Origin: Psococerastis gibbosa
Lineage: Eukaryota; Arthropoda; Insecta; Psocodea; Psocidae
Length of the DNA: 64,000 nt
Direction: 5' to 3'
Assembly: GCA_963971405.1 (NCBI GenBank)
Contig: OZ020484.1
Location: 37,656,770 to 37,720,769, forward strand
The notes under the pieces: model-generated
Told to the model about the DNA's origin: nothing
Database searches by the model: none
The model's input: only the letters and a program-made list of their open reading frames with translations
Program-made: the position numbers and the translations under genes
Shown here: piece after piece, positions 13,156-60,937 of the stretch
How the letters are laid out: each line of letters opens with the position of its first letter
How positions within the stretch are numbered: the stretch's first letter is position 1

Positions 13156-13317
13156 GGGGGGTATTCCACATACTTCAATCGTCAACGAAAAATTGAAAAA
13201 TGACGTTTTAGCAGACATTAAAGACATACTAAAAATTCTGCTACCACGTCAATTTACGTCATTTTGACGTCATTTTTCAATTTTTCGTTGACGTTGTACG
13301 TATGTGGAATGGTCACC
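13156..13317. mobile_element. Hairpin MITE, copy 1 (short type)
   Basis: Palindrome with ends near ATTCCACATAC and GTATGTGGAAT. Stem blocks such as ATTGAAAAATGACGT pair across a centre holding TAGCAGACATTAAAGACATA. It starts about 150 bases upstream of the GTF3C1 start codon. Confidence 0.75.
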
Positions 13318-13380
13318 GAAGTACAACGTCAATGAAAATTATGAAATTGATGGTGGCAGCAGAATTTTTAGTACCTAATA
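13318..13380. mobile_element. Single arm of a short hairpin MITE, copy 2
   Basis: Matches one arm of the 15240-15382 element (GTACAACGTCAATGAAAATT through AGAATTTTTAGTA). The other arm is absent. Confidence 0.6.
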
Positions 13381-13760
13381 GGTGCCCATTCCATTGACCG
13401 GCTAGGGCTATTCCCAACAACGGTGACGTGGTAGCAGACATTCAAGACTTAGGTGGCGTTTCCACCGACCTCGCATTGCAGAATTGACCGAAATGTTTAT
13501 TTTCCTCTATGCCATAGTTGAAATTGATCAATGATCATACAATAAAATCACAAACAAACTAATATTAAAAAATGGCGTCATGGGATATGTTAAGTACAAA
13601 CATTTTAATAGATTTCTATAAAAAGAAAAATTCTAATTTCCGTCAATGTCATTTGCAATATGCAATGCGAGGTCGGTGGAAACGCTACCTAAGTCTTGAA
13701 TGTCTGCTACCACGTCATCGTTGTTGGAAATAGCCCTAGCCGGTCAATGGAATGGGCGCC
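13381..13760. mobile_element. Hairpin MITE, copy 3 (long type)
   Basis: 380 bp with arms of about 125 bp. Ends GGTGCCCATTCC and GGAATGGGCGCC; each arm carries GACGTGGTAGCAGACATTC, and the centre is AT-rich with ATTGATCAATGATCAT. Confidence 0.85.
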
Positions 13761-14043
13761 TTATCCCTTTCTTCCGCTAAGGTTTTGTCTTCTGCTAAAA
13801 GCTAAAAAGTGGTTTATTCCACCGCGCGCTAGCAGGCAGCAGCTTTCCCGCTGAAATTCAAAATAACTTGTGTTTTTAACAAAGAAGTTCTAATAAAATA
13901 ATAATATTTTTACAAATTAGTATTTTAAATAATAGTAGATCACCCAACACTGCGTAAAAATTAGGTTCTAGCTAGTTTCATTACCATAAATAGTTTGGGC
14001 TATTGAGTAGCCTACTACATGCCAAAGTTTTATGTTCCGATAA

Positions 14044-14427
14044 GGCGCCCATTCCATTGACCAGCTAGGGCTATTTCCAACAACGGTGACGTGGTAGCAG
14101 ACATTCAAGACTTAGGTAGCGTTTCCACCGACCTCGCATTGCATATTGCAAATGACATTGACGGAAATTAGAATTTTTCTTTTTATAGAAATCTATTAAA
14201 ATGTTTGTACTTAACATATCCCATGACGCCATTTTTTAATATTAGTTTGTTTGTTTGTGATTTTATTGTATGATCATTGATCAATTTCAACTATGGCATA
14301 GAGGAAAATAAACATTTCCGTCAATTCTGCAATGCGAGGTCGGTGGAAACGCCACCTAAGTCTTGAATGTCTGCTACCACGTCACCGTTGTTGGAAATAG
14401 CCCTAGCCGGTCAATGGAATGGGCACC
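14044..14427. mobile_element. Hairpin MITE, copy 4 (long type)
   Basis: Same architecture as copy 3, inverted relative to it. Its uninterrupted GTACTTAACATATCCC stretch (14208-14223) is the empty site for the element nested in copy 6. GTTCCGAT lies just outside both ends. Confidence 0.85.
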
Positions 14428-14640
14428 TTAGGTTCCGATCAAATCTATATTCTATATAAATATATTTATATATGTCCATGGATAAAATAAACTTAGTTAA
14501 TCAGCCATCTTTGTTTGTATTTTACTTTTTACTCAATCAATCAATCTTTGTCCATGACCCAGCAAGGTGGGATAGACGGCGTCCAAAACAAAACAAAATC
14601 TAGAACAGAAACAAAAAATTTCATGCGGAAGCATATGTTA

Positions 14641-15066
14641 GGCGCCCATTCCACATACGTACAACGTCAATGAAAATTATGAAATTGAAGGACATTTCAA
14701 TTCCTCATTGATGGGGGCCATTCCATGTTTTTCAAAAAATGACAATTTTCAATTGAAGCGTATGCGCCAAATTTTTGAAATTTGTTTCTTGAAATTGTAT
14801 TTGTTTTCTTCGTCGCCTTATTATTTAATCCTTATTATAATTTTTATACAGAAATGCTTTCTTTTTAGAGAAATCAATTAAAATAGTTGTTCTTGTCATA
14901 TCACAAGACGCCATTTTTTAATTTTAGATTGTTTGTTTCATTGTTTGTGATTTTACTCTATAATCAATTGATCATTGATCAATTTTAACACTGGCATAGA
15001 GTAAAATTGAAATGCCCTTCAATTTCATAATTTTCATTGACGTTGTACGTATGTGGAATAGGCACC
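14641..15066. mobile_element. Hairpin MITE, copy 5
   Basis: Ends GGCGCCCATTCCACATACG and its near-complement, with TTA on each side (14638-14640, 15067-15069). Inner arms carry GTACAACGTCAATGAAAATT; the middle contains a second ATTCCATG-type end, so a further insertion is likely. Confidence 0.7.
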
Positions 15067-15069
15067 TTA

Positions 15070-15593
15070 AGCGCCCATTCCATTGACCGGCTAGGGCTAT
15101 TTCCAACAACGGTGACGTGGTAGCAGACATTCAAGACTTATGTAGCGTTTCCAATGACCTCGCATTGCAGAATGCAAATGACATTGACGGAAATTAGAAT
15201 TTTCCTTTTTATAGAAATCTATTAAAATGTTTGTACTTAGGTGCCCATTCCACATACGTACAACGTCAATGAAAATTATGAAATTGAAGGTGGTAGCAGA
15301 ATTTTTAGTATGTCTTTAATGTCTGCTACCACCTTCAATTTCATAATTTTCATTGACGTTGTACGTATGTGGAATGGGCACCTTAACATATCCCATGACG
15401 CCATTTTTTAATATTAGTTTATTTGTTTGTGATTTTACTGTATGATCATTGATCAATTTTAACTATGGCATAGAGGAAAATAGGAAAATAAACATTTCCG
15501 TCAATTCTGCAATGCGAGGTCGGTGGAAACGCTACCTAAGTCTTGAATGTCTGCTGCCACGTCATCGTTGTTGGAAATAGCCCTAGCCGGTCA
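15070..15593. mobile_element. Hairpin MITE, copy 6 (long type), with a nested short hairpin and a cut right end
   Basis: Long-type arms flank a 143-bp insertion at 15240-15382. The right arm stops at CCGGTCA, where copy 7 begins directly, so about 17 terminal bases are missing. Confidence 0.8.
15240..15382. mobile_element. Short hairpin MITE nested in copy 6
   Basis: 143-bp near-perfect palindrome, ends GGTGCCCATTCCACATACG and complement. TTA flanks it on both sides (15237-15239, 15383-15385), and the empty site at 14211 in copy 4 has a single TTA, proving a 3-bp target duplication. Confidence 0.92.
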
Positions 15594-15948
15594 GGCGCCC
15601 ATTCCATTGACCGGCTAGGGCTATTTCCAAAACGGTGACGTGGTAGCAGACACTCAAGACTTGCAGATTGCAAGTGACATTGATGGAAATGTTTGTTTTT
15701 CTTTTTATAGAAATCTATTAAAATGTTTGTAATTAACATATCCCATGAAGCCATTTTTTAATTTTAGTTTGTTTGTTTGTGATTTTATTGTATGATCATT
15801 GATCAATTTTAACTATGGCATAGAGGAAAAAAAACATTTCGGTCAATTCTGCAATGCGAGGTCGGTGGAAACGCCACCTAAGTCTTGAGTGTCTGCTACC
15901 ACGTCACCGTTTTGGAAATAGCCCTAGCCGGTCAATGGAATGGGCACC
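15594..15948. mobile_element. Hairpin MITE, copy 7 (long type)
   Basis: 355 bp; GGCGCCCATTCC to GGAATGGGCACC. The arm core GTAGCAGACACTCAAGACTT differs by one base from the other copies. Part of the left inner arm is shortened. Confidence 0.8.
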
Positions 15949-15990
15949 ATATGAAATAATCAGGTCACGCGGTCAGGATCATGGAGCTAA

Positions 15991-16372
15991 GGTGCCCATT
16001 CCATTGACCGGCTATGGCTATTTCCAGCAACGGTGACGTGGTAGCAGACATTCAAGACTTAGGTGGCGTTTCCACTGACCTCGCATTGCAGAATTGACGG
16101 AAATATTTATTTTCCTCTATGCCATAGTTAAAATTGATCAATGATCCTACAGTAAAATCACAAACAAACAAACTAAAATTAAAAAATGGCTTCATGGGAT
16201 ATGTTAATTACAAACATTTTAATAGATTTCTATTAAAAAAAAACAAACATTTCCGTCAATGTCATTTGCAATCTGCAATGCGACGTCGGTGGAAACGTTA
16301 CCTAGTCTTCAATGTCTGCTACCACGTCATCGTTGTTGGAAATAGCCCTAGCCGGTCAATGGAATGGGCGCC
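15991..16372. mobile_element. Hairpin MITE, copy 8 (long type)
   Basis: 382 bp inserted into another repeat. TAA lies on both sides (15988-15990, 16373-16375), and the second copy of that repeat keeps the uninterrupted GGAGCTAATAAAAC site at 41595-41608, so the duplication is TAA. Confidence 0.9.
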
Positions 16373-16790: not shown

Positions 16791-17034
16791 TGGCAATGGG
16801 GTATACAGGCATTTTTTTGCCGTATTTAGAATGAAACTAGATTTTATTTTACATATAAATTGATATAAATTTCTTTTAAATTTATTCTTACTTGGGAGTA
16901 AAATTCATTTATAAATTTTGCTTTTAAGGCAGGGGCGGCCATATTTGAACGTCACCGTTCCCACCACCATAGTAAACAAAAACGGAAAACATAATATAAT
17001 CGTGTTTCTTTTTACTTGGTTTTCCTAATTTTAC

Positions 17035-20000
17035 ATGGCAACTGCGAAAACTAATTATAAGTACTGTGCTGTGCCTAACTGTACAAATACGACATTCAGT
17101 ACGCCACAAAAACTGTTTTTGCATATGCCTAATGATGGAAAAAGGCGAAGAGCATGGATCCAAGCCGCAAGACGCGATGAGGCTGTCAGTCCGAAGTCAA
17201 CTCTGTTTTTTTGTGAAGACCATTTCGAGGTAGGTTTGCGTTGATTTCTACTCTTTTTTCCAATGAAATTAGTATTCAGCCGTAATTTGCAGGCAGGTAA
17301 TTTCTCCGACTGATGTGGGGTCTATGATGCATGACTACATAAACAATATACGTATTATGGTAGGGCTATTCTGTGGAGGAGACTTCATATTGACTTATTG
17401 ATTATTGCTAGGTTATGAAATTTAAATGTTGCGGCCTTACAAGATTCAATCACTTTCTTCTGTCACTCTTAGCATAAGCGTAGATTTCTTTCGCTCACTA
17501 AATAGTGTAGCTCCCTAGCTCCTTCGATTTTTGCCGATACTGACACAGTTACAGTATATAACTGCGCAGCTCATTGTTGATTTGGACTTTATATTTTTAG
17601 TCGGTTACTGGCCAATCAGTGCTCGGTTCATTTACAGCATTTATATGGACCAGAGACCCACCGACCGCTTTCAACAAGCTGTCATTAATTATTAAAGTAG
17701 TAAAGTGGTTGTACTTCATTTTATATTAGATTGAACTTACTGACGTGTTTTTTTCTGTACCAGTTGGAAGAATGCATTGAAAATTTAACTTATGTTAAAT
17801 TAATGCACGGGCGAATGACTATAACCAAAACAGCGATGCCAACTAAATTTGAATGCCAGGGCAGGCGCATCAACAAGTTTTTGGAGCCGACAAGACTTTT
17901 ACTAGTGAAGAGGCGAAGGAAAGAACTTATAGCTTCGGCCGTAAATGCGCAAGTAGAAGCTCAAGCAGGGCCAAGTAATGACAATCAAAGCTGCGAAGAT
18001 AGTTTGCCTATTATTGAAGACCATGATAGCAATCGTAAGTAGAGTTTTCTATCATGTTGTTATGTTGCCTTCGCCTGGCAATCAGCATCTTCGCTGTCGA
18101 TGATCATGCGGTAAACTTCCCGAGATATGTGCAATTTAATTGTAGGGCATTTCTCCACTAACACATGAGGTTTAACACAGTCGACACAGTCATCGCCGTC
18201 CGCATCTTTTTTTCTTGCGGGAGGCAGACTGGGTGAGCCGAAATCTCTAAAATTCCATCAAGGCTCTTTACTATCATCATCATCATATCAATATTATAAA
18301 ATTGCGCGCAGGAGGCTTCCCCTGGGGAAAAAGTATGTGAAATGCGGCACGCCAGAATTAGTAGCGTTCACGAATTTTGATAGCAGTCGAGATTTTACAG
18401 TCTAATACTTATTTATAAAACTCCAAGCTCCGCCAGACAGCGACATGTTGCTCTCGTTCTAGGCGGGGGGCAGCTGGTCTCCCCTGCCCTCTCCTGTGGA
18501 CGCCCATGGACATAATGTGTATTTAAACTGCGTTTATTTTTTACATTTTCCTGGTTTATGGTGACCCCATGTAAACACAGGAATTACGGAGTATTAATGT
18601 AGTTTATGTAAAAATACCAATGTGCGACACATGACGGTTTCTCTAAAAATAATAAAAATCTATATCTGAAAATATTGTATAGTAGACGTTCCGTGTAATG
18701 TGTGAGCCACTGTGAATCTTATATTGTGTTTTAAAATTTACTGTATACCTGTACATGGTTTTTTTTTGTTTCAGTTTTTTCAAATGACAAGTGCACGCAA
18801 ACTATGCAGGCAGCTGCCGTAACTAGCCGAGCTGTGCAAGTGACGCCACAGTACACGACTGTCAGTTGCTCACCAATTAAATCTGCAACTACCAGTCGCG
18901 GTACTACAAAAACCCCGGAGAAACTGGAGAGGGGGTCCGGCCGCAAATTTTCGGCCTGTAGTTTTCTAAATTCAAGCAGTGAAGATAGTGATGACAGCGA
19001 TTTCGCAATTGACGATGTCGTCGAGCTGAAGGAGCTGTCTGCTCGCAGGATGAAGTTAATAATTCAGGCTAGGCCAAAGAAATATTTAGGCATTCCTGCG
19101 AGCTGCATTTTCGTGTTTGAAATGCTGACAAAAGATGCCCCCTGCCGCAATGTGGCGATAGTCTTGCAGCGAATAAAACTCTGCAGGACCTTCGATGAAA
19201 TAGGGGACGACTTCGGAATTACCCAACAGCACGCCAGTACTGTTTTTAAGCAGACATTGCCTTACGTCCATTCAAACCTGAAGTCGCTTATACATTGGCC
19301 CCCTAAACCTACAATACTTGCCAACTTACCAATTGCATTTAGGGCCAATTACCGGGAAGTAGTGTGCATATTGGACGCATTCGAAATTGAAATCCAAAAG
19401 CCAAGCAATCCCATCCTGCAGTCAGCCACTTGGTCGCAATATAAAAAATGCAATACAATTAAGTACATAGTGGGTGTTACTCCCGATGGACTAGTCTCAT
19501 GGTGTTCGAAGGGATATGGAGGTCGGACTGAAGACACGCACATAGTGACCGAGTCTGATTTTCTACATCACCTTCCGATGGACAGTTTAGTCATGACTGA
19601 TCGTGGGTTCAAAACACTTGAACCATTCCTTTTGAGAAAAAATTGTCGGCTTGTGCGACCGCCAAGTGTTTTTCTTACAAGTGGTACAGTCATGACTAAG
19701 AAAGAAGTCATAGAGACGAAGCAAATACGAGGGCGGATTGAAAAGTCCGTAGAAAATCCGAGGGATGGCGCCACTCGTCAAGGCCAAATATCACCTCATT
19801 TAGCGAACTGTCTGATCGGAACTCAGTCAAAGTTTGAGCGTTATTCGATCATAATTGACATCACAGTGATTTTTTAAGTTCGGGGAGTTGCAGGTAATTG
19901 TGAGCAATGGATGAAAAAGAATTTCGAGTCGTTATTAAGCATTATTTTTTAAAGAAGAAGAATGTGCAAGAAACGAAAAAAAGCCTTGATAAACATTATG

Positions 20001-21184
20001 GGGAGTCTGCTCCGTCAATTAAAACTGTTTATAAGTGGTTCTCAAATTTTCGTACTGGGCATATGGGCACAGAAGACGCCGAACGCTCTGGGCGGCCTTC
20101 TGACGTCACTACGGCAGAAACTGTAAAAAAAATCAGTGATTTAGTGCTAGGAGAGCGTCGAATGAAACTGCGAGAGGTAGCTGACATTGTGGGGATCTCG
20201 AGCGAAAGGGTTCACAATATATTACATAATCACCTTAAAATGAGAAAATTGTCAGCAAGATGGGTGCCGCGACTGCTGACAGCTGAACAAAAACACCGTC
20301 GCGCCGAGCTTTGTGCAGAGAATTTAAAGCTGTTTCAACGAGCCCCCAAAGAATTTCTTCGTCGTTTTATAACGGTAGATGAAACTTGGGTTCATTTTTA
20401 CACCCCAGAAACGAAGCAGCAGTCTAAGCAGTGGGTAGCCAGTGGAGAACGTGCCCCGAAGAAGGCAAAGACCGTCCAGTCAGCAGGCAAGGTCATGGCC
20501 ACCATTTTTTGGGACGCAAGAGGTGTCATTTTCGTAGATTATTTAGAAAAAGGAAAAACGATTACCGGCACCTACTACGCATCCCTTCTTGACCGCCTTA
20601 AAGCAGAAATTCAAACTGTGCGCCCCCATTTAGCAAAAAAGAAAATTCTTTTTCATCATGACAATGCGCCGGCTCATACCGCAGTGTTGGTGACCTCTAA
20701 AATTCAGGAATTAAAGTTCGAACTATTGCGCCACCCTCCTTATTCCCCTGACCTGGCACCGTCCGATTATTTTCTGTTTCCCAATATGAAGAAATGGCTT
20801 GGAGGGAAAAGATTTGGCTCAAATGAGGAAGTAATGCGCGAAACAACCGAATATTTTGCAGGGCTCACGGAAGATTATTTTCTGGGTGGAATAAAAAAAC
20901 TTGAGGGAAGATGGACCACCTGCATTGAGCGACAAGGGGACTATGTTGAAAAGTAGTAGTAAGCATTGTTAATACATTGTACCAGTTTAGAGTTTCTACG
21001 GACTTTTCAATCCACCCTCGTAGCTGCCCTCCGTATACACGTTGAGCGAGTTATAGAGCGCATTCGCGAGGAGAAGTTGTTGTCTATGCATTCGTGTGTG
21101 AATTTAAAATTTTTACCTATGCTGGATATGGCAGTGGAATGTGCATTAGGGCTTGTAAATTTACAGGGAAAATTAATTAAGTAA
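17035..21184 (+). CDS. THAP-domain DDE (Tnp_4/IS5-type) transposase, interrupted by a mariner
   Basis: Three exons: 17035-17229, 17764-18034, 18775-21184 (the last containing the mariner). Exon 1 is a THAP zinc finger (YKYCAVPNC, then CEDHFE); exon 2 continues it with the usual MHGRM and AMPTKFECQ features and a basic tail. Exon 3 has a helix-turn-helix (FDEIGDDFGITQQHASTVF) and a DDE_Tnp_4-type core with Asp in CILDAFE and LVMTDRGF. The third acidic residue, Glu in RIHVERVIERI, lies beyond the mariner, whose TA-flanked insertion after base 19727 separates it from the rest; the original frame resumes at 21023 and runs to a stop at 21182. The gene thus looks otherwise intact but is currently disabled. 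Confidence 0.82.
19728..21020 (+). mobile_element. Complete mariner element
   Basis: 1,293 bp with about 28-bp inverted ends, starting CGAGGGCGGATTGAAAAGTC at 19728 and ending with the complement at 21020; one mismatch was noticed. Target duplication TA at 19726-19727 and 21021-21022. It holds one uninterrupted transposase reading frame. The near-identical ends and open frame point to a recent, possibly still mobile copy. Confidence 0.95.
19907..20956 (+). CDS. Mariner transposase (DD34D), intact
   Basis: 349 residues, the usual mariner length. An N-terminal helix-turn-helix pair (FRVVIKHYFLKKKN; LREVADIVGISSERVHNIL) binds the inverted ends, followed by the WVPRLLT linker. The catalytic core has Asp in ITVDETW, Asp in HHDNAPAH and Asp in YSPDLAPSDYFLFP, the third acidic residue being Asp as in mariner rather than Glu as in Tc1. 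As recalled, the sequence is closest to the irritans group (Himar-like). No stop or frameshift is visible. It cuts and pastes its own element at TA sites and is nested in the ISL2EU-like transposase. Confidence 0.95.
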   Translation: MDEKEFRVVIKHYFLKKKNVQETKKSLDKHYGESAPSIKTVYKWFSNFRTGHMGTEDAERSGRPSDVTTAETVKKISDLVLGERRMKLREVADIVGISSERVHNILHNHLKMRKLSARWVPRLLTAEQKHRRAELCAENLKLFQRAPKEFLRRFITVDETWVHFYTPETKQQSKQWVASGERAPKKAKTVQSAGKVMATIFWDARGVIFVDYLEKGKTITGTYYASLLDRLKAEIQTVRPHLAKKKILFHHDNAPAHTAVLVTSKIQELKFELLRHPPYSPDLAPSDYFLFPNMKKWLGGKRFGSNEEVMRETTEYFAGLTEDYFLGGIKKLEGRWTTCIERQGDYVEK

Positions 21185-21640
21185 CATTACGACTTTGATT
21201 TGATTATCACAAGATTTACTAAATTCTGTGTTAAGGCCGGAAGAACCGGCACACACGAAACACTCTTGTGTTCCAAAAAATGGCGACTATGAACTTTTAC
21301 TTATTAAATTATTTTTACTTTGACTGGACATCATCATGAAATCGTTGATTTGTCGTAAAAAGTGTAGATTACCATTATCGTATATAATAATACAGGCTTT
21401 CAGTGATATTTTAATTCATTCCTCTGCGACCAATATTAACTGAGATATGAATTATATAAGGTTTCAATCGGCCGCTATCTTGTAACTAAATAGTGGATTT
21501 AGCTGGTTAAAGAACTCGATCAAGACATTTTTGAAGTTCATCAAAATCGGATAATATTTACGGAAGTTGGAGTGTTTCCTAAAATCGATATACATACATA
21601 AACACATACTGTACATACGTATATACAGTATATATGTATA

Positions 21641-21950
21641 AAGCTGGCCATTGACAAGGCCTCCAAACGGACTCGCGCCAAGCCAAATGGCGTGTCCTGT
21701 TCCATTTGGCGTTAGCGCCATTTAGAGGGGTCATTCACGACTACGCTGAACCAGTCGCTTTAAATCTTTCAAATTGTACAGTGTAAAAGTACCTCTTCCA
21801 TATCGTAACACTATACAATTTGAAAGATTTGGAGCTACTGGTTCAGCGTAGTCATGAATGACCCCTCTAAATGGCGCTAACGCAAAATGGAACATGACGC
21901 GCCATTTGGCTTGCGCGATTCCATTTGGAGCCCTCGTGTATGGCCAGCTT
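21641..21950. mobile_element. Foldback MITE, 310 bp
   Basis: Long inverted arms begin AAGCTGGCCAT at 21641 and end with the complement at 21950. Inner arm blocks such as TTTAGAGGGGTCATTCA and TTCAGCGTAGTC pair across the element. It carries no gene and lies between the two ISL2EU-type genes. Confidence 0.75.
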
Positions 21951-22613
21951 AACATTTTGAAAAGAGGGTGGTTTTAGGCTCAGGGGGTCATGAAATGAAA
22001 AGTCGTGAAGAAATTTTCCGAGAGTCGAACATTGGTAGATGGTAGATCTCAATAGGTACATGAATCTGCCTTTAAGCTGAAAATATAAAGGTGTTTTGTT
22101 CAGCTGCTATTTATCCGCCCCTGGGTCCAGTGCAATTTGTTTTGAATTATGGCGGTTGGCTGTTGCTGTGCAGGAGAATCCGGGCTAATAGGCCGTGGTC
22201 GATTTGAAAGTATGCTTCCAAACGTTTCGTCAACAACAACAGTGGCACTATGTACTACACTTCTAAGATTGTATCGTGGGGGTACCGTAGGAACTGACTG
22301 ACAGACTGGTGCAGGTATGGATCGGCGCGCAAGCGCTCTCGTGTCTGCTTGGCTAGTTGGCGTCATTCTCTGTTTTGTTGTTTTATTTACTTTTAACCTA
22401 CCCCCGACTACATAGGAAAGCCATAGAAATCTATAAACATCCGCAAAACTTTAATAGAACGGAAGAAGGATTAAAACACTACCGAGTCAATCAGACACGA
22501 GAGCGCCTGCGCACCAATTCAGACCTGCTCGGTGGGCCCTCTAACTGTAGCCTACGTCTTCAATTCCTTAGGGACACCTGAAAACTATGACACTACCTAT
22601 AGAAGTATTGTTA

Positions 22614-23583
22614 TACAGGGTGCCCCAGACCATCCGTCCACCTACTTTTTCTCGAAAACGAATGACGTCAGAGGTCTGATTTTTTTTTAAATCATTACAA
22701 AATGGGGGTTGATGCATTTCTGGAAATTAGTTTGGAATTTTTTGGGGACCTGGAAGGGGGGTTTGGGGGGTCCGTATGCTGTTCCTCGAAATAATGAGAA
22801 CAATTTTTTGTTTGTCATTGTTAAGTTGAAGTCATGAGCTTTCATTTGAGATGTCACTTGCCATGCTTCGGGTGACCTATTCCCAACCTCCCCCCCTCCC
22901 CATTGAGGCGCAGGTTCAGGCACTAACATTTGTGTATCATTGTCAAGCTGAAGTCATGAGCTTTTATTTGAGGTGTCACTTGCCATGCTTTAGGTGACCC
23001 ATTCCCACCCTTCGCCCCTCTCCCCGTTCAAGCGCAGGTTCAGGTACGATTTGTATAGTTAACTTGACATTTCTTGTAATAAGCTTTCATTTAAGGTACA
23101 ACATGCCATATGATATTTTAGAGAAATTTAATCTCAAACTTTAGCTGTTTACTGTACCTGAACTGAAAAACTCAGGTACACCAAGGTAAGATTATCAAGT
23201 ACTCCTATTTTTTCTTTACCAGAAAATTTGATTTAGACTTTTAGCATTCAGCACACTAATAGCCCACAGGTACCCAATGTTTGACTTTTAAAGACCTCCT
23301 GTACCTGAACCTGTAGGGATACAATCAAAATTTTTGCAAATTATGAATGAACACTTTATAAGCCTTCAACTGATGTACAATTTGACATACCTTTACATTT
23401 GATTATTCCGAGGAACAGCATACGGACCCCCCAAACCCCCCCTTCCAGGTCCCCAAAAAATTCCAAACTAATTTCCAGAAATGCATCAACCCCCACTTTG
23501 TAATGATAAAAAAAAATTCAGACCTCTGACGTCATTTGTTTTCGAGAAAAAGTAGGTGGTCGGATGGTCTGGGGCACCCTGTA
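22614..23583. mobile_element. Foldback element, about 970 bp, with roughly 190-bp inverted arms
   Basis: The left arm starts TACAGGGTGCCCCAGACC at 22614; the right arm ends with the complement at 23583 and stays nearly identical for about 190 bases (to the CATACGGACC block). Both ends are bordered by TA. The interior has AT-rich repeats with GGTACA/TGTACC-type motifs and no coding sequence. A single related end (TACAGGGTGTTCCAGACCA) is at about 27999. Confidence 0.75.
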
Positions 23584-24144: not shown

Positions 24145-24262
24145 GGCGGGGTTTCCACATACGTCAATGTTAAATATGGTGGTAGCAGACATTTTTAGTA
24201 TGTCTTTAATGTCTGCTAAAACGTCAATACCACATTTACCATTGACATGTGGAAACCCCGCC
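24145..24262. mobile_element. Hairpin MITE, copy 9 (short type)
   Basis: 118 bp; ends GGCGGGGTTTCCACATACG and complement, flanked by ATA (24142-24144, 24263-24265). The centre reads GTAGCAGACATTTTTAGTAT then ATGTCTGCTA. It lies downstream of the SWIM-YqaJ stop codon. Confidence 0.85.
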
Positions 24263-32500: not shown

Positions 32501-33634
32501 TTTAAGTCGTTGGTCTCTTTTCGATGGTGGAAGGATTAGCCGCTAGATATTTCCACTTTGCATTGCCTGGGGTACGCCCGATCGTAATATAATAATAGGA
32601 CTCGTAAATGTAGTGACGAACAACACTTAGTCTACTTGTTTCAATTTCACTATATTTACTGCTCAAATGCAAATGCTAATTTCAGAGTAAGGCACTATAT
32701 ACCCGGGTATTGTCATCCGCCATGTTGTATCCTAATTCCTATATGGTAAGTATTGTAAGAAAAGTAAGAGGTTGAGAAATATTGAAAAAACTAATACACG
32801 TTTTAGTATTTTTTTATGAAACACTTCCCTAATTGGTAGCACGTTTTTTTAAATAATAATAAATAAACAACGATAAATTTCTAAAAATAAATAGGTAAAC
32901 ACCCAATGCTTGGCTTATACACCAGACTTATAATGGATATAATGTGACGGATGACAATACCTGTCTAATATAGAGCCCTATTTCAGAGAAAACAATTCGA
33001 AATTTGTAACTCTGTAACAATCACTTCTTTCTCTCTGGATAAAAAAATTGAATGAATTTTTAAAACACTAAATTCATCAGAATCAGTCTGGAAGTAGGTT
33101 TTTCCCCCAAACAAAGCTTGTGACCAGGTAACCAAGGCACAAAGTCTCCCAAGATTGATACATGTATGTTTATAAATGATATGGCGGCTATTCCACTTGC
33201 CGATATTCCCTCATTTATGCATCAATAATAAGTCTCTACCATATTATAACTTAATTTATAATAGATAAGTTAAGTATCTACATAATAGTCTCATTCAAAG
33301 AAAAATCGCATCAATTATTGATGCACAAATGTGGGAATATTGACAAATGCAATAGCCGCCTATGCCCATGGTTGCTCCTGACTGGTTACAATAAAAATGA
33401 GGTCCCCACATACAAATCTCACTTAGAACGAAAGATCACTATCCTCTTTAAATTGGCTGTCGATCTATCTAGACATAAATAGCAATTACAGATACGTACT
33501 ACATTTCTTATAACAACATGTACTAACCGTTCCATTTCCTTTTTTTTATGGGGTGCTACGCCTTTAAACCCTTTACGATATGCTCGCGTCCGTCTATTTT
33601 TTTCATATTCCTTCTGGCCTTTAAATTTACCCAT
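29596..33634 (-). CDS. Mutator-like transposase fused to a C-terminal YqaJ nuclease domain
   Basis: Two exons, 33528-33634 and 29596-32020, joined in phase to give about 843 residues. The basic N-terminus is MGKFKGQKEYEKN followed by RKGFKG. The centre (roughly residues 260-480) matches an animal Mutator-like transposase: VVADGMWAKRSY, a CSLCC cluster, LIGDGDSSVMKRL, and a VECRNHLLRNM helix after it. The last 165 residues or so are a YqaJ/PD-(D/E)XK nuclease: RLTASNFGK, FGKTNEDLARE, YPFLAASPDG, LLEIKC and YQIQGQLNI retain the expected active-site residues. No stop interrupts it. A hAT-like element holding a Copia sits 57 bases before the ATG and probably removed its promoter. The Mutator ends were not found. 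Confidence 0.83.
32199..32243 (+). repeat. GAAAT pentanucleotide microsatellite
   Basis: About nine tandem GAAAT units, inside the Mutator-like gene's intron. Confidence 0.9.
33183..33360. mobile_element. Hairpin MITE, copy 10
   Basis: 178 bp; ends GGCGGCTATTCC and complement, flanked by TAT (33180-33182, 33361-33363). Stem CGATATTCCC is unlike other copies; the centre shares AATAAGTCTCTACCATATTA with copies 14 and 15. It lies in the Mutator-like gene's intron. Confidence 0.8.
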
Positions 33635-33793: not shown

Positions 33794-33933
33794 GACGCAT
33801 ATTCCACCAACGTCAATAGTGATAGTAAATGTAGTATTGACGTGGTAGCAGGCATTTTTAGACTGTCTTTAATGTCTGCTACCACGTCAATACTACATTT
33901 ACTATCACTATTGACGTTGATGGAATAAGAGCC
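33794..33933. mobile_element. Hairpin MITE, copy 11 (short type)
   Basis: 140 bp near-perfect palindrome flanked by TTA (33791-33793, 33934-33936). Stem GTCAATAGTGATAGTAAATG; centre GTAGCAGGCATTTTTAGACT. Nested in the hAT-like element. Confidence 0.85.
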
Positions 33934-52400: not shown

Positions 52401-55400
52401 ATGAACCAAGGAGTTCACCTGTTCACAAAGAACATCAGTGTAAAGGTGTGTACAATTAATGAGACAGCTGTAAGATTCTTAACGAAATGTAGAGAAAATG
52501 AGGATGTTTCATGTTACGCTGGGCTCCCTGGATACTGGATAGTGCAACTGTGTGCTATGGTGCCCATTCCATTGACCGGCTAGGGCTATTTCCAAAACGG
52601 TGACGTGGTAGCAGACACTCAAGACTTAGGTGGCGTTTCCACCGACCTCGCATTGCAGAATTGACGGAAATGTTTATTTTCCTCTATGCCATAGTTAAAA
52701 TTGATCAATGATCATACAATAAAATCACAAACAAACAAACAAAAATTAAAAAATGGCTTCATGGGATATGTTAATTACAAACATTTTAATAGATTTCTAT
52801 AAAAAGAAAAACAAACATTTCCATCAATGTCACTTGCAATCTGCAATGCGAGGTCGTTGGAGACGCCACCTAAGTCTTGAATGTCTGCTACCACGTCACC
52901 GTTTTTGGAAATAGCCCTAGCCGGTCAATGGAATGGGCACCTTAGGCGCCCATTCCATTACCTCGCATTGCAGAATTGACGGAAATGTTTATTTTCCTCT
53001 ATGCCATAGTTAAAATTGATCAATGATCATACAGTAAAATCACAAACAAACTAAAATTAAAAAATGGCGTTATGGGATATGTTAAGTACAAACATTTTAA
53101 TAGATTTCTATAAAAAGAAAAATTCTAATTTCCGTCAATGTCATTTGCATTCTGCAATGGGAGATCGGTGGAAACGCAACCTAAGTCTTGAATGTCTGCT
53201 ACCACGTCACTGTTTTTGGAAATAGCCCTAGCCGGTCAATGGAATGGGCGCCTTATGTTTAGAGAGCACATGGTTCACAGCTATGATCATGTGTAGGCCA
53301 GGCCAATCAATCACTTGTTCTTTACCGTAAATATTATTGTACCAAAGAAAAACAAAAAAAAAACTGTTTTAATGCACTAAGTAATGAGGCCTTATTATCG
53401 TTCTCATTTCAAGTTTCTGACATAAAGTGTGGAATAATACCTCTAATGAAATGATTCTAATCCTGAATATGACGAATATGCATTTCCTGCATTTAAAAAA
53501 TAAGTCGGGCATAGTACCTAATGTATAAAAATGACCGTCACATTTTTATTTTGTGGTAATAAAGTGTATAACCAAGTTTACTATTCTCTTGAGTCTAGTC
53601 TATCGAAGTTATTCAGCAAACCTTGGAAACTGTAATGATGTCTAGATCTTACGAGCAAATCGTAGTTTGGATCCCACTACGCGTTTTTTGCACAAAGAGA
53701 ATTTTCCCAGGAAATATCAAACGTAGACAAGTCAAAAACACCCATTAAATTAGCATAAATGCTCCTCTACCTTCCGAAATATAACATATTGCCATCACTA
53801 ATATCAACTGTGGTTGAACTCCTTCCTCGAGACACCCACACCAATAGTTTTTGAGCAAATCAAATTCATGAACCGGTCCGAGTTTACTCGAACATGCTTT
53901 CCAATTTATCAACATTAGTAGATAGAGAATATGAGTAATTTCATGGTAAATAATTTTCCAGTGGTTAAATTTCCGATATCTCGGGGGGAGGGGGGGGGGA
54001 GGGATGTCCACCTGACGTCACTGGAAGTGAGGTAAATTCTAGATAGGTCAGACAAACACATTAATTACCACACAGCAATAATGGCAGGGCATGCAATGCA
54101 TTTGAGCGCGAATTCTCTATCATTTTTTTCAAATAATAATTTTTGTGCAAAACCAAATATTTTTTTGGGAAAGCAATCTATCCGGTTTCGTTACTCAATT
54201 TAACACCTAAAACATGCCTGAAGGTAGAAATCATCGATAGAAAGGTTTAGCAGAAAAATTATTTTTTAGTCATTTTTCATTAAAATGTAGTTATTTTTAT
54301 TTTTTACCCCCAGAAGCAAACTATCAAGGGGCAAGCGACCCCCCGCATTTTGTCAACATTAATAACGACTACAATATATGAGAATTTAAAGGAAATCGTT
54401 GGAGCCGTTTTTGAGAAATCATTTTTTTAGACGTTTTTTTGGAGTTCTTTGAGATTAAAACCCCCCCAAATTGAGTTAGCCCCAATTTAAAAAAAATGGT
54501 CCCGAGGTATGATTTTTGTGAACCTACATGCCAAATTCCACCCAAATCCACCGAGTAGTTCGCCCGGAAATCGATGAACAGACAGACAGAGCGACAGACA
54601 TTTCGTAAAAACCACTTTTTTGGGTTCCTGGGACCTCAAAACGTGTAAATCGGTTGAAATCTCGGAATCGAAAATTTCGACCATCACATAGCTTTCCTTA
54701 TACTACGTATAAATTGGAAAGCAATAATTATGGCCTATCTGTGTTCATATCATGTATCGAAATGCTCAGAAAAATTTCTTCTGCTTGTCCTAATATTTTT
54801 GACAACTCTAAGATTTAGATATTTTATTTTTACATTTATACGTCTTTTCGCCTTCCGATTGTCTATTAAGCCCTCCAGAGTCCACATAAAGTTCTATAAG
54901 ATTTGTTTGACATCGTGTATTGGCATTTATTTTAATTAGATTATTTTGGCCTTATTTCAGCCGAGGATCTGACCAAGAAGACATGGTTATCTGTCCCTCA
55001 ATTCCATCTGACCCTCGGTTCTATTGTTTTGAATGCGAACCTGATTGTGGAGCTGATTGCGATCATCAATTATTATCGACTGATGCTACACTGACAGCCG
55101 TATTTTCTGCTATACGGAGTCTCAGTTACCCAGCAGTTATTGAAGAACTTAAACAACAAATTTTAGTGGAGAGAAACTTGTCAAATGCATCAGAAAAGGC
55201 CGCAGCCAGCAGTAAAAAAAGCAAAGTCTTAGAAAAAGCTACTATAACACATTCACCCGCCATACTACCGCAGCGATCAAGCTTGAGAATTCAGTGCAGC
55301 AAGACAGCTAAAACATCTCAAGAATTGGTATCCACTATTTCTCCCAAAACTGGGCAAACAAACGTGTCGCCTGCCCGAAGGAAAATATCTGAGCCTTTAT

Positions 55401-58400
55401 TTTCCCCCCGATCATCAACTGTAGGTTGTTTGAAGAATGTTCAATCGGCGTTAAGAAGGGTGGCCAAGTCAGCCAACAAGAAAGTCAACAGTTTGGGAGA
55501 GTCTGAGTTGCATGTAGCTGTTCAGAAAAGAGATATTCGAGAAACTAGCCGATTGCTCAATTGTCGTGGATGTGATCCGAACATCCAGGACAATGCCAAG
55601 TGGACCCCTTTGGTAAATTTGTAATTTTATTTATAACAATTTTCCTGGTCAAAAAATTGTCATTCATGAAATTTTTTAATATCACTTAGGCTACTATTGT
55701 TTTTTCAAAGAGTATTAAAATCGACCATTAATTGGTGAATTTATTTCATGCTCACAAATGGAACAGACATGCTCTTGGTGAAATTAATTTCAAGTAGGCA
55801 TGTTCTAGCATTTCATTTTTATGTTGTAGTGTAGAGAAGCTCTGATTAGGTGAATGGGTTAATGATAGTCGGGGCTTATTTTTTTAGCATGAGGCTGTCC
55901 TGACTGGTGACATTCCCATCATAACCTTATTGATCGAGAAGGGAGCCGTGGTGAATTCTTGTGGTGCCGAGAACCTCACACCCCTTCATCTTGCCGTCGG
56001 TGGCTACTCCAGGATTCGTGGTGGCGTAGCTGTAGGTCTGGCGGCTGTTGCCCAAGTACTTCTAAGGCATGGCGCTGATCCCTTAGCCAGAGATTTGCAA
56101 GGGAATACTCCTACGTAAGTTCACATAATTTATGCATAATATTGATGATGTATTACATTTATTTAGGTATCGCCATATATTCCACCTTAGGACTCTTTTA
56201 TTGCAGGCGGGTGCGTGAGTGGGTCAGGTGTAAAATAAATACAAGAAAAGCTTCCAGCTGGGTCATTTACATAGAACGTGGTGTTTTTTTAAAGAAAAGT
56301 TTCACAAGAATTATAAGAAGGAAACACTTTTCCCAATGGATACACCACTTGATAAGCTTATCCTATTCTGTTCTATCGATGCTTTCTAACTCCAGACATG
56401 TGTTGGTACTAAATAAACAAAATAGAACCGGGTGCTTTCCAACGCAAGGTTTTGGGTTTGAAGAAATTACAAAAAAATATATATATATACAGTACACTGT
56501 AGTATTACATGGTATATGTAACACTGACATTAAATTAACTTTGGTTGAAGAGGTAACCTCCTCGTTATAACCGAAATTAGAGGAGATGGAAAAAACTGGG
56601 CTTGGCGAGATTCAAACCCACGATCGACGTCCCGGTTAGGCGTAGATCGTGGGTTCGAATCTCGCCAAGCCCAGTTTCTTCCATATCCTCTAATTTTGGT
56701 CATATATACATATATAAGCGGAGCTCTCTCTTGCGCCTTGCATTAACATGGTTCCATTGAGCCGTACGGTCCACCGGCGAATTTACTTCATTTGCGATTT
56801 TTTGTTTGTTTTGTTTTAAGGAGACCATTATGTAGATACTTAACTTATATATTATAAATTAAGTTATAATATAGTAGCAGACATCATTAATAAGTCTCTG
56901 CCATATTATAACTTAATTTATAATAGATAAGTTAAGTATCTACAGTACATAATAGTCTCCTTAAAACAAAACAAAAATCTCAAATCACAAATGAAGTAAA
57001 TTCGCCGGTGCAATTGCCCCCTCACGAGACTTGTCATGAATGGTCGTATTTAATTGTTGAACAGAAATCAGTATTTCCCATGGATCAAAATATGTAGGTA
57101 CATTGCAGTAGCGATGACAATAAAAAATTATTTGCATGGTTTTTGTTTTTTAAAATTCAGTAATATGTAGAAGTGCAAATAAAGAAAATGAGAAATAGTT
57201 CAGACTCATACATAATGGGTAGACTTCAGGTGGTTCTCTAAATCGGATTTTTTTTTACATTTTTACAAAGTTTCGTGTTCCACACAATGTTTAAAGGGTG
57301 AATTTGAAATAATATATTTAGACTCGTTTGAAACCTTAATTCATTAATTCATACTGCTTCTAATGACACATTGACAATTCATGTCTTTTGAAAAGTGAAG
57401 GCTGTGGATTTTTTTAGTTAATGCATGTCACGCGAAAATTACAATTTCAAACTTTTTTGTCATGACACGGATTGCTTGCCGACTCACTTGTGCGCAAACT
57501 AAGAGACGGATAATGAAACCGATTAAACAGCTGGAATGAGCAAGGAAGGTGGAAAATCAATGACGTAGTTCGAATTTATTAATTTATTTATTCATATTAA
57601 GTGCTTCAGTTGAAGTCGAGAATCGCAAAGAGTGGAAGAGATCATGCCGTATCGCAGACCCCTCTTAGGGATGAAAGCGAGAAAAAATAAAAGAAAGAAG
57701 ATATTAAGACCCGAAAAGATATGTTTTTTTTGTTGAAAATCGGCAATTTTTTTGTTTTTTGTGCCCACCCCTTAACTTTTCCATGTGATCTCAAGAATAT
57801 CTTATTAAAAAAATGTACATAGCGTATATTTTTAATTGTTTACAGGAGTTTCGTTATGAAGATGATTAATAATAATGATGATGATGATGCCAAAGAAGAA
57901 TGGTCATTTTTCGACGAAGCTTCCAAGGTAGCTGTACCATTCAAACTACCTCCGCCGCCGCAAATAACGCTTTTAGATGTTGGTCTATCACCGGATGAAA
58001 AACTTACCTTCATTAAGTTTGCTGAATCTTTCGATTGCAACATTGCAGCGAACACTACCAGGCAAGTATCCATTGCATTGTACCTCTTTCTAGAAGCTTA
58101 TAGGTAAGCAAACCACCTTCCATTATCAATAAAATTTTTGAAAAAATAAGACGAAACTGATCCACAATAAAATATATAATAAGTGACCGGTTTCGGTAAG
58201 ATACCATCATCAGACTTATCTTACCGAAACCGGTCACTTATTATACATTTTATTGTGGACCAGTTGCGTCTTATTTTTTCAACAATTTTAAGTATAATGA
58301 AGTTCCACGAAGTGAAAATCTCACTATGATTCCATTATCAAGCCCAATTTAAAACATTACAACATTAATAATTAGTTAATGAGTGGAAAGTACAGTTATA

Positions 58401-60937
58401 GAGACACAAATCGTAAGAAATGACGAATGCAAACTTGCTATTTAATACCATTGTTTCAAATAAAGGAACCGGCACGAGTGAACCCGTACCTTTATAATTA
58501 GTAATGGTACCGTAATAGCTCTATGGTAAATAATTGTCCCGTGGTTAAATATGCCAATGACCAATAATATATTACTATACAATGGTATAAAAGGCATTGG
58601 GGCTCGTATTATCCATAATACGATCTTCAGAAATTAATTTTCTCTTCAAAACCTTGCTTTGGAGAACACCCTGTTCTGTTTTCTTACTCTATTTAGCACA
58701 TTAAACATGGGTGTTTGCTTACATTAATAAGTACTACAATATATACAGTTTGTGCATTTAAAAGAAATCGTCGGAGCTGTTTTAGAGAAAACATTTTTTA
58801 GTCTATTTTGGTTTTTTTTTTGAGGCGTAAACCCCCCAAATGAAGTCATCAGAAGAATGAAAAAAAATCCTCTGGATGATGTTTTTGTGGACGTGCATGC
58901 CTAATTTCAAAGTAGTTTGGCCTCAAATTCAGTTACAGACCACGTTTGTGGGTTCCTGGGACTACAAAACGAGTAAATCCATCGGAATCTCGAAATCGAT
59001 AATTTCGACCATCACAAAGCTTTCCTTATACTTAGGCGGCGGCTATTCCACCGACTAATTTGCTTCACTAGTCGTGGTAGCAGACATCATTACTAAGTCT
59101 CAACCACATTTTAACTTAATTTATAATAGATAAGTCAAGTATCTACATAATAGTCTCCTTAACACAAAACAAACAAAAAATCTCAAAACACAAGTGAATT
59201 AGTGAAGCACATTAGCCGGTGAAATAGTCGCCATATACTACAAAAATATGAGAAAGCAACAAGCCTAAACCGTACTTGTGCGTAATGCAACTAATCCTTT
59301 TTTCAGAGACGCCTATAAGGCAAATCATTTTATTGTATCCGACAATATCCAGTGCAAGAAGTTCAGTTGGGGTTTGACCAGGGCGATGGCGCGTGGAGCA
59401 TTCATCATTAAATCTAGCTGTAAGGCTCAAAATTTAACCTCTAATTCAATTTATTTTCGCTTTCAATTTCTCACATCAATTTTGGTGCTTCTAGTGAATA
59501 ATTATTTTATTAAGAGTAAAGTCAAGGTGTTTAGTAGCTATTTCTCATTATTTCTGCCAAACCAATTCATTCATTCAAATTTTTCACATTAATTAAAATT
59601 CTTATTATATTCCAAAATTCTACCTGTACATTTTAATGTTTATTAATAAACAATGCAACCATTCTCTTGTATTATAATAATTTATTACTTTGAATTTCTC
59701 ACGCATATTTCAACGCCATCACGTGACACCTTATATTATAGTATAATAATAAAATAAGCCCCGGTTTTATAATAATCCCAAATCGCCATGATCGGGCTGC
59801 AGAAAGAATGCTTTTTCAGCTTCGTTTATCCCTTAAGAGGAAACTGGCCGTTGACTTTGGCCACCTTTAGTTCGCACCAAAATAGGTTTTTTAATATGTT
59901 TTATTAAGAAAGTAGGAAAGGACAGCACGAAATGTAATACTTTTTATTTTTTATTTAATTAACTAAGCATGTTATTAAAGATTTGGCTCAAAGTTGTAGA
60001 GGACTACTTCATGCATCATATAATAAGGTATTTTTAGTTTTCGAAATTGTAGTTTTTTTATAAAATCGATAATACGTGAAAAGTTATTATTTATAAAATA
60101 TTTGCATGTTTCTGAAAAAACTTCAATATCGAAAATTAAAAATATCTTATAATATGATGCATGAAGTAGTCTTCTACAACTTTGATGAGCCAAATCTTTA
60201 ATAACATGCTTAGTTAATTAAATAAAAAATAAAAATTTCGGGCTGTCAATTTCCTACGGGCTGTACACTCTTAAATTTATTACGTAATTTTATAACGATT
60301 TGGTCTGTTGAATTAGTAGAGAACTATTCCATGCATAGCTCCATGCGGTTTTTTTTCAGTTTTGGTGCAGGGGTTTTCCAGTGAAACTGGCAGACGACGG
60401 AAATTTACCTAATTAAGAAATCCATGGAAAAATTATGACAACAATAATGAAGAACACCGTAATATAGTGTGGTATGAAAGAGTCCATTACCAATTGAATG
60501 GACCAAATCTTTATAACTTTAGTATTAACTTCAATAAAAAATATAAACCAACCTATTTTAAAGTGATTAATGGAAGTTAAGGACGGTTCGAAAAAAAACT
60601 TAATTTGTATATATTTTACTATTAATTAACTTTTTAACTATTTTCAGGGATGCGAGAGTGCAACGAACGAGAAGAACTGGTTAGCAAAGACGACTACGCG
60701 GTTGCACCAACATGGCTACCCAAGTTAAAAATGGCGCAGGAAAATCGCAGCATGGTTCGCCCAGGCCTTTTTAGCGGGTGCCATCTCATGATTGGTGACG
60801 GCAACAGCCATGAAGTCACTTATAAAGGCGATGTTATTCCCCTCAATGATTTGATCTCATTTGTAGAATGGGCTGATGGAAGGATTATAATGGGCAAGCG
60901 AATGCCAGATCCGGATGATTCGAATCTGAAAACCACC
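49411..60937 (+). CDS. BARD1: BARD1-like protein: degenerate RING, ankyrin repeats, BRCT; six exons, 3' end not in view
   Basis: Exons: 49411-49466, 54961-55612, 55888-56114, 57846-58061, 59307-59419, 60648-60937; about 518 codons with consistent phases. Exon 1 ends in LCKTC, its last Cys codon completed by the first base of exon 2, giving a Cys-rich RING-like N-terminus (CKTC, ICPS, FYCFEC, CGADC) followed by a helix. Residues near 205-310 form ankyrin repeats (ESELHVAVQKRDI, WTPLHEAVLTGDIPI, TPLHLAV, LLRHGADPLARD). BRCT1 follows (LSPDEKLTFIKFAESF, RGAFIIKSSW with the BRCT Trp) and BRCT2 begins at PGLFSGCHLMIG. This order is that of BARD1, which pairs with BRCA1 as a nuclear ubiquitin ligase in homologous recombination. 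The RING lacks the usual C-x-H-x2-C block, so a BRCA1-type pairing is inference. Exon 4 has a GC donor. Intron 1 holds a whole hAT and two hairpin MITEs. Confidence 0.8.
49616..52162 (-). mobile_element. Complete hAT transposon
   Basis: 2,547 bp, ends TAGGGTTGCCAGAT at 49616 and its complement ending at 52162. Perfect 8-bp duplication GTTTGTTG outside both ends (49608-49615, 52163-52170). Subterminal CCGGAC repeats occur near both ends (for example 52075-52150), as expected for hAT binding sites. One uninterrupted transposase gene. It lies in intron 1 of the BARD1-like gene, on the opposite strand. Confidence 0.95.
49927..51855 (-). CDS. hAT transposase, intact
   Basis: 642 residues, normal for hAT. 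An N-terminal BED-like/TTF zinc finger (AFCKLCHNNF, then NHGNRKKH) is followed by an RNase H-like catalytic core (PFSVATDASNKGNK with the first Asp, MVTAYGADNTSVNFG with the second) and the helical insertion. A C-terminal dimerisation region follows, with LQYVLSVPVSNAHVERIFSV giving the conserved Ser-x2-x2-Glu-Arg-x-Phe-Ser signature. No stop interrupts it. Together with intact ends and a perfect target duplication this is a candidate autonomous element. Confidence 0.93.
   Translation of the reverse strand: MDRERDSEFQVKGNANKKMRRMCHYNVEWEADFSWLAKDSKVETSAFCKLCHNNFTIGFDGLKAVKNHGNRKKHMEAEAARTQSLRMEKFFVRQKDTMQKEKVSIAEITEVFHSVKHHTSYLAQDCYTKVMKMVITDSDIVKQMTGGRTKCSAIVNHVLYPHAMEIALKDLKTNIPFSVATDASNKGNKKFYPVVAQYFMPNGIRHKILDFYEDPFEDSRSVKEKLCEVLTKSKLSWKMVTAYGADNTSVNFGVNNSVFQKLASEENADIFAGHCHDHIFHNCAKYALKVISLDVENLVSKIFGEFSCSAKRREELKECFSFFESDYHEVLRHVPTRWLSLFRAVDRVLSSWEPIKMYFLEKGEENCPKVIWDFLKDQEDQLASESNPTIHELYLYFIHNLMAAFQEVLLMLEKKTTTAFNLHYVMVKFRNELLKKIRDNFFGMKVQMAFRRGHIEKTKIDKFTEEALNAYHRAVNYLEKWYPYDSSKFKLYSCLDLVRTFPNLNEIVDIWMASPWKDKLASDNIYSELSALESVLPSLKSLEVSSLEMWCEFFKKEESAPNLLKVLQYVLSVPVSNAHVERIFSVMGNLWTNERNRLSINTVKSELCVFFNIEESCTDFAASIAENKALLKATASSDKYGA
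52559..52941. mobile_element. Hairpin MITE, copy 12 (long type), in BARD1 intron 1
   Basis: 383 bp, ends GGTGCCCATTCC and GGAATGGGCACC; left neighbour TAT, right neighbour TTA, shared with copy 13. Confidence 0.85.
52945..53252. mobile_element. Hairpin MITE, copy 13 (long type, shortened left arm)
   Basis: 308 bp; the left arm jumps from CCCATTCCAT to ACCTCGCATTGCAG, losing about 70 bases including the core motif. Flanked by TTA (52942-52944, 53253-53255). Confidence 0.8.
54110..54730 (+). repeat. Repeat A, second long copy
   Basis: Co-linear with 28.7-29.35 kb, with shorter poly-C runs. In BARD1 intron 1, ending about 230 bases before exon 2. Partial copies are at 58730-59030 and about 63480-63660. 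Confidence 0.65.
56500..56710. repeat. tRNA-like foldback repeat D, copy 2
   Basis: Arms GGGCTTGGCGAGATTCAAAC and its complement flank a short centre with GGTTAGGCGTAGATCG. The right arm has a good Pol III B box (GTGGGTTCGAATCTC) and the left arm its mirror. The outer stem AAATTAGAGGA pairs with TCCTCTAATTT. In BARD1 intron 3. Confidence 0.6.
56760..57019. mobile_element. Hairpin MITE, copy 14, in BARD1 intron 3
   Basis: Arms pair from CCACCGGCGAATTTACTTCA to its complement at about 57010. Inner arms carry TAGATACTTAACTTAT; the centre is GTAGCAGACATCATTAATAA followed by GTCTCTGCCATATTA. Terminal bases are degraded. Confidence 0.7.
57230..57780 (+). repeat. Repeat B, second copy, with a short insertion
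   Basis: Matches 5150-5570 through ACTCGTTTGAAAC, ATACTGCTTCTAATGA and GAAAATCGGCAA. A foreign piece at about 57570-57690 (GAAGTCGAGAATCGCAAAGA) resembles a LINE tail. In BARD1 intron 3. Confidence 0.55.
58136..58290. repeat. Near-perfect palindrome with Penelope-like motif
   Basis: Arms of about 70 bp (AAGTGACCGGTTTCGGTAAG ... its complement) around ATACCATCATCAGACTT. The GACCGGTTTCGG and CATCATCAG pairing recalls Penelope-like element terminal repeats; assignment is from memory. In BARD1 intron 4. Confidence 0.5.
59035..59232. mobile_element. Hairpin MITE, copy 15, in BARD1 intron 4
   Basis: Ends GGCGGCGGCTATTCCACCG and complement; centre GTGGTAGCAGACATCATTAC. The right half matches copy 14 (ACTTAATTTATAATAGATAA), but the left arm lacks the partner block, so it is an internally shortened relative. 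Confidence 0.7.
59935..60275. repeat. Foldback repeat F
   Basis: Arms of about 130 bp (ATTTAATTAACTAAGCATGT ... complement) with GATTTGGCTCA and ACTACTTCATGCATCATA. Followed by CCTACGGGCTGTACACTC. A single arm is at 28550-28690. In BARD1 intron 5. Confidence 0.6.

Follow-up and report, generated by a model that had tools for sequence, protein, structure and literature searches.

How can short inverted-repeat elements share one central sequence while the stems that lead to it differ? The question is raised by the window studied here, the whole 64,000-nucleotide stretch that was analysed (C1:37,656,770-37,720,769 of a 409-Mb assembly), in which an earlier note had described some 15 palindromic elements of a single hairpin kind, with shared ends, a shared centre and interchangeable stems. 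The elements were studied in a sample of 334,735 bases in 43 pieces, made up of the window, twenty 10-kb stretches taken from C1 at approximately even steps and 30 core-centred loci. Since these loci were chosen by their core, they were kept out of the divergence test.

Short hairpins, composites and their common core

The palindromic elements are real, but the core-bearing ones in the window number 13 rather than about 15 (all the entries of Table 1 except those at 13318, 14641 and 33183), to which the half relic at 13318 can be added. In most elements a GGYGNNN(A/T)TTCCA end leads into a lineage-specific stem, about 30 bp long, and then into a palindromic core that reads GTGGTAGCAGACATT-loop-AATGTCTGCTACCAC. 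The sharing of ends and core lies far above chance. When up to 2 mismatches are allowed, GTAGCAGACATT has 28 matches in the window (mean of the shuffles 4.6, largest 14) and GGYRCCCATTCCA has 25 (mean 3.2, largest 7). In the whole 409-Mb genome GTGGTAGCAGACATT is found exactly 26,337 times (13,090 + 13,247), against 3 (1 + 2) for the reversed string, and GGYGCCCATTCCA is followed by the core 15-45 bases on in 11,799 places, against 0 for the control. Nevertheless, this sharing does not extend to all the elements that had been grouped together: at 33183-33360 and 14641-15066 the ends are present but a core is missing, even with 2 mismatches allowed, and the ends of the element at 56.8 kb are eroded and devoid of ATTCCA. 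The GGCGAATTTACTTC of the latter resembles, by eye, a diverged C stem. Other genome-wide counts include 1,111 copies of the C-type core GTGGTAGCAGACATCATTAATAAGTCTC, 241 of the B stem with core and loop, and 910 of TGACATTGAC + core + AAAGACAGTCTAAA within 2 mismatches, many TGATATTGAC forms included.

The elements are 118-435 bp long (apart from the rows that span two elements), too short for a transposase gene, and they fit the description of MITEs: they are short, have inverted terminal repeats, reach high copy numbers and carry no transposase gene. DNA folding of three window elements (15240-15382, 24145-24262 and 33794-33933 each being among those folded) produces hairpins, with z of -22.8, -18.3 and -11.1. 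The order of GGYGNNN(A/T)TTCCA end, stem and palindromic centre is common to the short hairpins, with few exceptions, and a core placed at the centre is, among the window's core-bearing elements, confined to the short hairpins. Two facing cores were seen in 18 short hairpins, drawn from the sample and from the Harbinger locus treated in the next section, the hairpin loop being of about 14 bases. The distance from the end to GTGG was measured in 38 arms, 34 of them from hairpins (2 of 36 were left out) and 4 from families A and C; it is 47, 48 or 49 bp in 28 arms and 34-70 in the other 10.

The idea of one kind of hairpin does not survive closer comparison, since many copies in the window are composite, a second unit lying at their centre. 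Family A accounts for 7 of the 13 core-bearing window elements and has the motif in a subterminal position, 46-47 bp from the end. About 260-270 bp separate the cores of complete copies, where a second GGYGGCGTTTCCACCGACCTCGCATTGCAG-like end comes after CAAGACTTA. A complete inner unit of 238-242 bp, with GGYGGCGTTTCCA-like ends of its own, is found between the cores in 4 of the 7 copies; the remaining ones are shortened (15594), have lost one arm (52945) or are interrupted (15070). This inner unit, called H and about 240 bp long, is flanked by TTA/TAA in 18 of 21 inner pairs (one pair spans two copies), which is not a 3-bp duplication, and the sequence between the cores includes a stretch that resembles the start of a MADF gene. 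The A signature, the core followed by CAAGACTTAGG, marks 13,909 arms in the genome, about half of all the exact cores. Family A is best read as a hairpin that received another MITE in its centre and was then amplified as one element. A family A palindrome with an empty centre had no match within 2 mismatches, so the insertion of H is read from its ends only. The E hairpin at 15240-15382 sits in the interior of an A copy, and paralogous sequence near 14204-14229 reads like its empty site.

Table 1 Core-bearing and related elements of the window (positions counted from its first letter)
Element	Position	Strand	Remarks
Hairpin MITE, F-type stem, arms unequal	13156..13317	+	core at 13208 and 13233; TSD none seen
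Half E-type hairpin, relic arm up to the core	13318..13380	+	read by eye
Family A composite MITE	13381..13760	+	inner unit H 13452-13689; flanks ATA/TTA
Family A composite MITE	14044..14427	+	inner unit 14115-14356; flanks TAA/TTA
E-stem element without core, 426 bp	14641..15066	-	TSD TTA
Family A copy, right end damaged	15070..15593	+	interrupted by E hairpin 15240-15382
E-type hairpin MITE	15240..15382	+	arms identical over 53 letters compared; TSD TTA
Family A MITE, shortened interior, left inner end missing	15594..15948	+	
Family A composite MITE	15991..16372	+	TSD TAA; inner unit 16062-16302
G-type hairpin MITE, unequal arms	24145..24262	+	TSD ATA
Related element, GGCGGCTATTCCA ends, no core match	33183..33360	+	flanks TAT/TAT
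B-type hairpin MITE	33794..33933	+	TSD TTA
Family A composite MITE	52559..52941	+	inner unit 52629-52870
Family A derivative, left core arm deleted	52945..53252	+	TSD TTA
C-like relic, one core, eroded ends	56764..57018	+	limits by eye
C-type MITE, one core	59038..59232	+	TSD none seen

Harbinger identity and the parent element

The superfamily very probably belongs to PIF/Harbinger, its members being non-autonomous Harbinger MITEs. According to PMC9710019, PIF/Harbinger elements have a two-gene structure, a TIR of about 15 bp and typically a 3-bp TSD. Among 48 outer elements (two rows spanning more than one element were left out of the test), 27 have equal 3-bp flanks; shuffling of the right flanks gave 11.2 on average and 20 at most. 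The 27 are TTA (11), TAA (9), ATA (3), TAT (2), TAC (1) and TTT (1); the other 21 have no equal 3-mer, equal flanks of 2 bp are seen in 2 elements and those of 4 or 5 bp in 0. The genome was also searched for DDE_Tnp_4 and MADF, and four neighbouring pairs were read for 451 bp on the outer side of MADF. A Harbinger at C2:18.156-18.160 Mb contains a 288-aa frame with DDE_Tnp_4 (PF13359, 1.1e-27) and, on the opposite strand, a MADF gene (PF10545, 6.5e-8) whose frame begins MASWDITSTTILINF and which adjoins an E end. This end, GGCCCCCATTCCACATACGTACAACGTCAATGAAAATTATGAAATTGAAGG, is the E stem without the core: it is identical to the E hairpin at 15240-15382 over 47 bp (94.5% over 55) and has GAAGGACATTTC where the core-bearing arm has GAAGGTGGTAGCAGACATT. 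Two kinds of interior match the 5' region of the MADF gene: that of the core-less E element 14641-15066 (86% across 222 bp) and those of A copies (about 76-82% across some 160 bp). The attribution of the elements to Harbinger is based on the 3-bp duplications, the two domains, the E-stem end and the matches to the MADF 5' region.

No left end of the C2 Harbinger was found in the 700 bp read, the first part of which is sequence common to other loci, and the 451 bp read for each of three MADF/DDE candidates (L119, L121 and L122) did not contain an end of this type belonging to the candidate itself; in L122, a fragment of a family A MITE forms the outer edge. The DDE_Tnp_4 frame of the window itself (18804-19877) was rejected as a parent, as there is no such end between 16,372 and 24,145 and none among the 25 inverted-repeat pairs listed, out of 27, for 17000-23500. 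It adjoins an uninterrupted Mariner-type frame of 349 aa at 19907-20956 (Transposase_1, HTH_48). A search of the sample for larger elements between such ends, which required equal 3-bp flanks and left out the standard A stems, returned two pairs, both explained by nesting. Beyond this genome, 65 places in viral contigs and 3 in prokaryote contigs were taken as chance matches: TTCCA lies within 80 bases before the motif in 13 of these 68, and the stem, by eye, in none. Similarly scoring DDE_Tnp_4 frames occur on one strand at C3 25.54-25.84 Mb (five) and C14 20.36-20.85 Mb (six), tens of kb to about 200 kb apart, perhaps in duplicated segments. Mariner, hAT, Mutator, non-LTR and copia transposons were met as well and, together with DDE_Tnp_4 and MADF, make an insect source likely; the window holds a 777-aa frame in which a Mutator-like transposase domain is combined with one of the YqaJ/alkaline-exonuclease type (29596-31929, minus strand) and an uninterrupted copia polyprotein frame of 1298 aa (34899-38795).

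Insect PIF/Harbinger elements and their MITEs resemble the present system in the two-gene parent (transposase and MADF), the short terminal repeats and the 3-bp TSD, but here several stems share a single palindromic core, which the only parent end located lacks. The mPing/Ping/Pong elements, from the Harbinger group of rice, are alike in that small elements are moved with a related larger one. Unlike the elements described here, mPing is not known to be a long hairpin or to come with alternative stems. Galileo and Foldback-like elements have long, structurally dynamic inverted repeats too, for which template switching and exchange between copies are discussed (PMC4168063). Yet Galileo belongs to the P superfamily and has a TSD of 7-8 bp, instead of the 3 bp and DDE_Tnp_4 seen here, and lengths of 7 and 8 bp are excluded by the lack of equal 4- or 5-mers in the 48 elements. 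Among the papers listed in literature searches, none deals with this superfamily, judging by titles and the beginnings of abstracts.

Stem lineages, core-less forms and arm symmetry

The stems were compared by local alignment against 300 shuffles, and the resulting p values are not corrected for many tests. The links B-G, G-F, F-E and E-L124a (L124 being a hairpin of the Harbinger locus) have a p of 0.003 each, as does K-H; D-H has a p of 0.013, and D-K alone is not significant (0.153). The proposal of at least five stems without obvious similarity must thus be reduced, since B, G, F and E are linked to each other and so are D, H and K. It holds better for the two stems that match neither group clearly: A has no residual similarity to any other stem (lowest p 0.62), and the nearest to C is only F (p 0.053). 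The intermediates that had been expected of a single ordinary family accordingly exist within B-G-F-E and within D-H-K, but nothing seen joins A or C. A wholesale E/F chimera, first suspected at 13156, gave way to a change by small steps once the arms were compared. By eye, the loop AAAGACAGTCT goes with stems B and D and the loop ATTAATAAGTC with C and the K-like hairpin L024, and the loop of the hairpin at L036:1666-1714 holds AGTATG and ACTGTCT, that is, both loop types of the superfamily; judged in this way, loops may also mix between stems.

The notion of a conserved centre with exchanged stems is correct in that one core is found with different stems, to which it must be added that E and H/K each exist with and without it. 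In the whole genome 961 arms have the core after the E stem, and 1,975 have RCATTTCAAT in its place. Among the first 100 places listed, E with the core mostly forms pairs 44 bp apart, corresponding to hairpins, and core-less E mostly lies about 320-405 bp apart. The H/K stem with the core (AGAATGCAAATGACATTGACGTGGTAGCAGACAT and close forms) has 1,032 matches within 2 mismatches. H without the core was seen in this sample only inside A, next to the cores of A itself, where the long stem is kept in a single inner arm, AGAATGCAAATGACATTGACG with GAAAT after it, the other inner arm being shorter. All four combinations of two stems and two interiors exist, which would follow from an exchange of modules as well as from two losses of the core at roughly one position. 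The alternatives are a re-assortment of stems and interiors and a parallel loss of the core. For the former the evidence goes further than resemblance, because stem E is abundant both with and without the core and H/K also occurs in both forms, although no stem-exchange breakpoint was observed directly.

It is known that template switching can take place between the arms of inverted repeats (PMC8604942, PMC8794818); the former paper describes its outcome as homogenised arms and inverted spacers. Such quasi-palindrome correction is comparable to what is observed here, but it is a mutational process and not an element family, and it would here act on amplified MITEs. The replacement of stems by template switching, suggested earlier, predicts arms of one type within an element. 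This is mostly the case in family A, where the pairs typed at one site are 14 C-C, 11 A-A and 1 mixed, that is, one type in 25 of 26, with 12.8 mixed pairs expected (26 of the 28 pairs were typed, the two dropped ones having unlike arms there, A and T). These pairs are not independent, as some look like segmental duplicates, and their homotypy may come from two old symmetric subfamilies. At C1 3.06-3.71 Mb, A arm pairs that share rare variants recur (3171977/3502964; 3058922/3710415), which suggests segmental duplications. In the E hairpin at 15240 the arms are identical over 53 letters, while a GAATTT/GACATT asymmetry persists on the loop side, as in F. The G-type arms, on the other hand, do not follow the prediction: arms a and b keep two versions across copies, L005b being closer to L021b (0.96) than to the other arm of its element (0.88). 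Since the G arms differ, and since only 17 of the 34 arms compared together with their partner are closest to that partner, the arms are not always homogenised. In the L124 hairpin the inner stem looks, by eye, E-like on one side and G/B-like on the other, and this hairpin is a plausible intermediate.

Origin of the core and stem combinations

Several scenarios may explain these combinations. The one that we favor, with little more than even confidence, is that one palindromic core was joined to different Harbinger terminal repeats and that the products were symmetrised by template switching. A given Harbinger transposase/MADF pair would recognise ends and stem together, and with a new stem a hairpin would accordingly be moved by a new Harbinger. 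The joining could have occurred by recombination or template switching near the common TTGA(C/A)G ... ACATT junction, after which a polymerase switching at the core palindrome would copy one arm onto the other and yield a symmetric hairpin in which a new stem encloses the old core. In family A, the centre of such a hairpin would have received the second unit H before the composite was amplified. More speculatively, the core could be viewed as a hinge that fuses to the end of an active Harbinger, snaps back, copies the arm to the other side and so becomes movable by a new transposase, a passenger of successive Harbinger families. The superfamily bears, in our judgement, on how MITEs acquire their ends and outlive the parent transposon. 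It brings together, in one assembly, different stems (at least one of them matching a Harbinger end), a common core in tens of thousands of copies, and elements with mismatched arms that resemble intermediates, and it makes the capture of terminal repeats and the symmetrisation of arms directly testable by sequence trees.

Alternatively, the diversity could result from plain descent, in which an ancestral Harbinger repeat had both stem and core and the stems drifted along with their Harbingers. The core-less E and H would then have lost TGGTAGCA or little more, GAAGG[TGGTAGCAG]ACATT becoming GAAGGACATT. The intermediates that connect B-G-F-E and D-H-K agree with this possibility, and the arms of core-less E, with GAAGG and then RCATTTCAAT, fit a deletion of 8-9 bp from a core-bearing arm. 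Nevertheless, the loss would be required at about the same junction in both E and H, a single loss before the E/H split being contradicted by the core-bearing E and K hairpins, and the stem of A is like no other, with C approaching F only. We consider descent of this kind, including the loss that it implies, as possible but rather improbable. A role of the core in mobilisation, as a second binding site for MADF or the transposase or as an internal transposition enhancer that selection would retain when elements are mobilised, with the stem as a free spacer, seems unlikelier still. It would account for ends and core that are common to the lineages and for the prevalent spacing of 47-49 bp, and PMC9921582 reports that terminal and internal sequences both affect mobility in mPing/Ping/Pong and that internal regions alter the mobility of mPing and mPong. 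However, E was amplified without the core, as seen from the Harbinger end and the 1,975 core-less arms, and the spacing is 34-70 in ten arms; H provides no comparable evidence, being known only within core-bearing A copies. The same end and arms lowered the standing of a narrower idea suggested by the 47-bp spacing, that of the core as a purely subterminal transposase site. Some binding role of the core is possible, but the amplification of E elements did not require it.

A use of the core by the host, for instance as a source of small RNAs or a regulator site, could be imagined from the very high copy number and the long hairpins, but it is highly improbable. Its prediction of a slower decay of the core was evaluated in family A with 28 near-complete places out of 36 A-arm places from the window and the twenty stretches (stem, columns 20-43; core and loop, columns 44-72). 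With all columns, the core does appear to change less, with 35 differences in 672 stem positions and 17 in 812 positions of core and loop (p = 0.0016). The excess stem differences sit in columns where several copies differ, and without the columns that have more than 2 differences the contrast is no longer clear (13/532 against 13/784, Fisher p = 0.32). The function of the core raised in the earlier note is thus not supported as a service to the host, and a clearly lower substitution rate of the core is found only when all columns are counted. Once a family A copy has inserted, its core and stem decay at about equal rates, and this similarity implies that the conservation of the core between lineages is a property of the moving lineage, not clearly one of host use.
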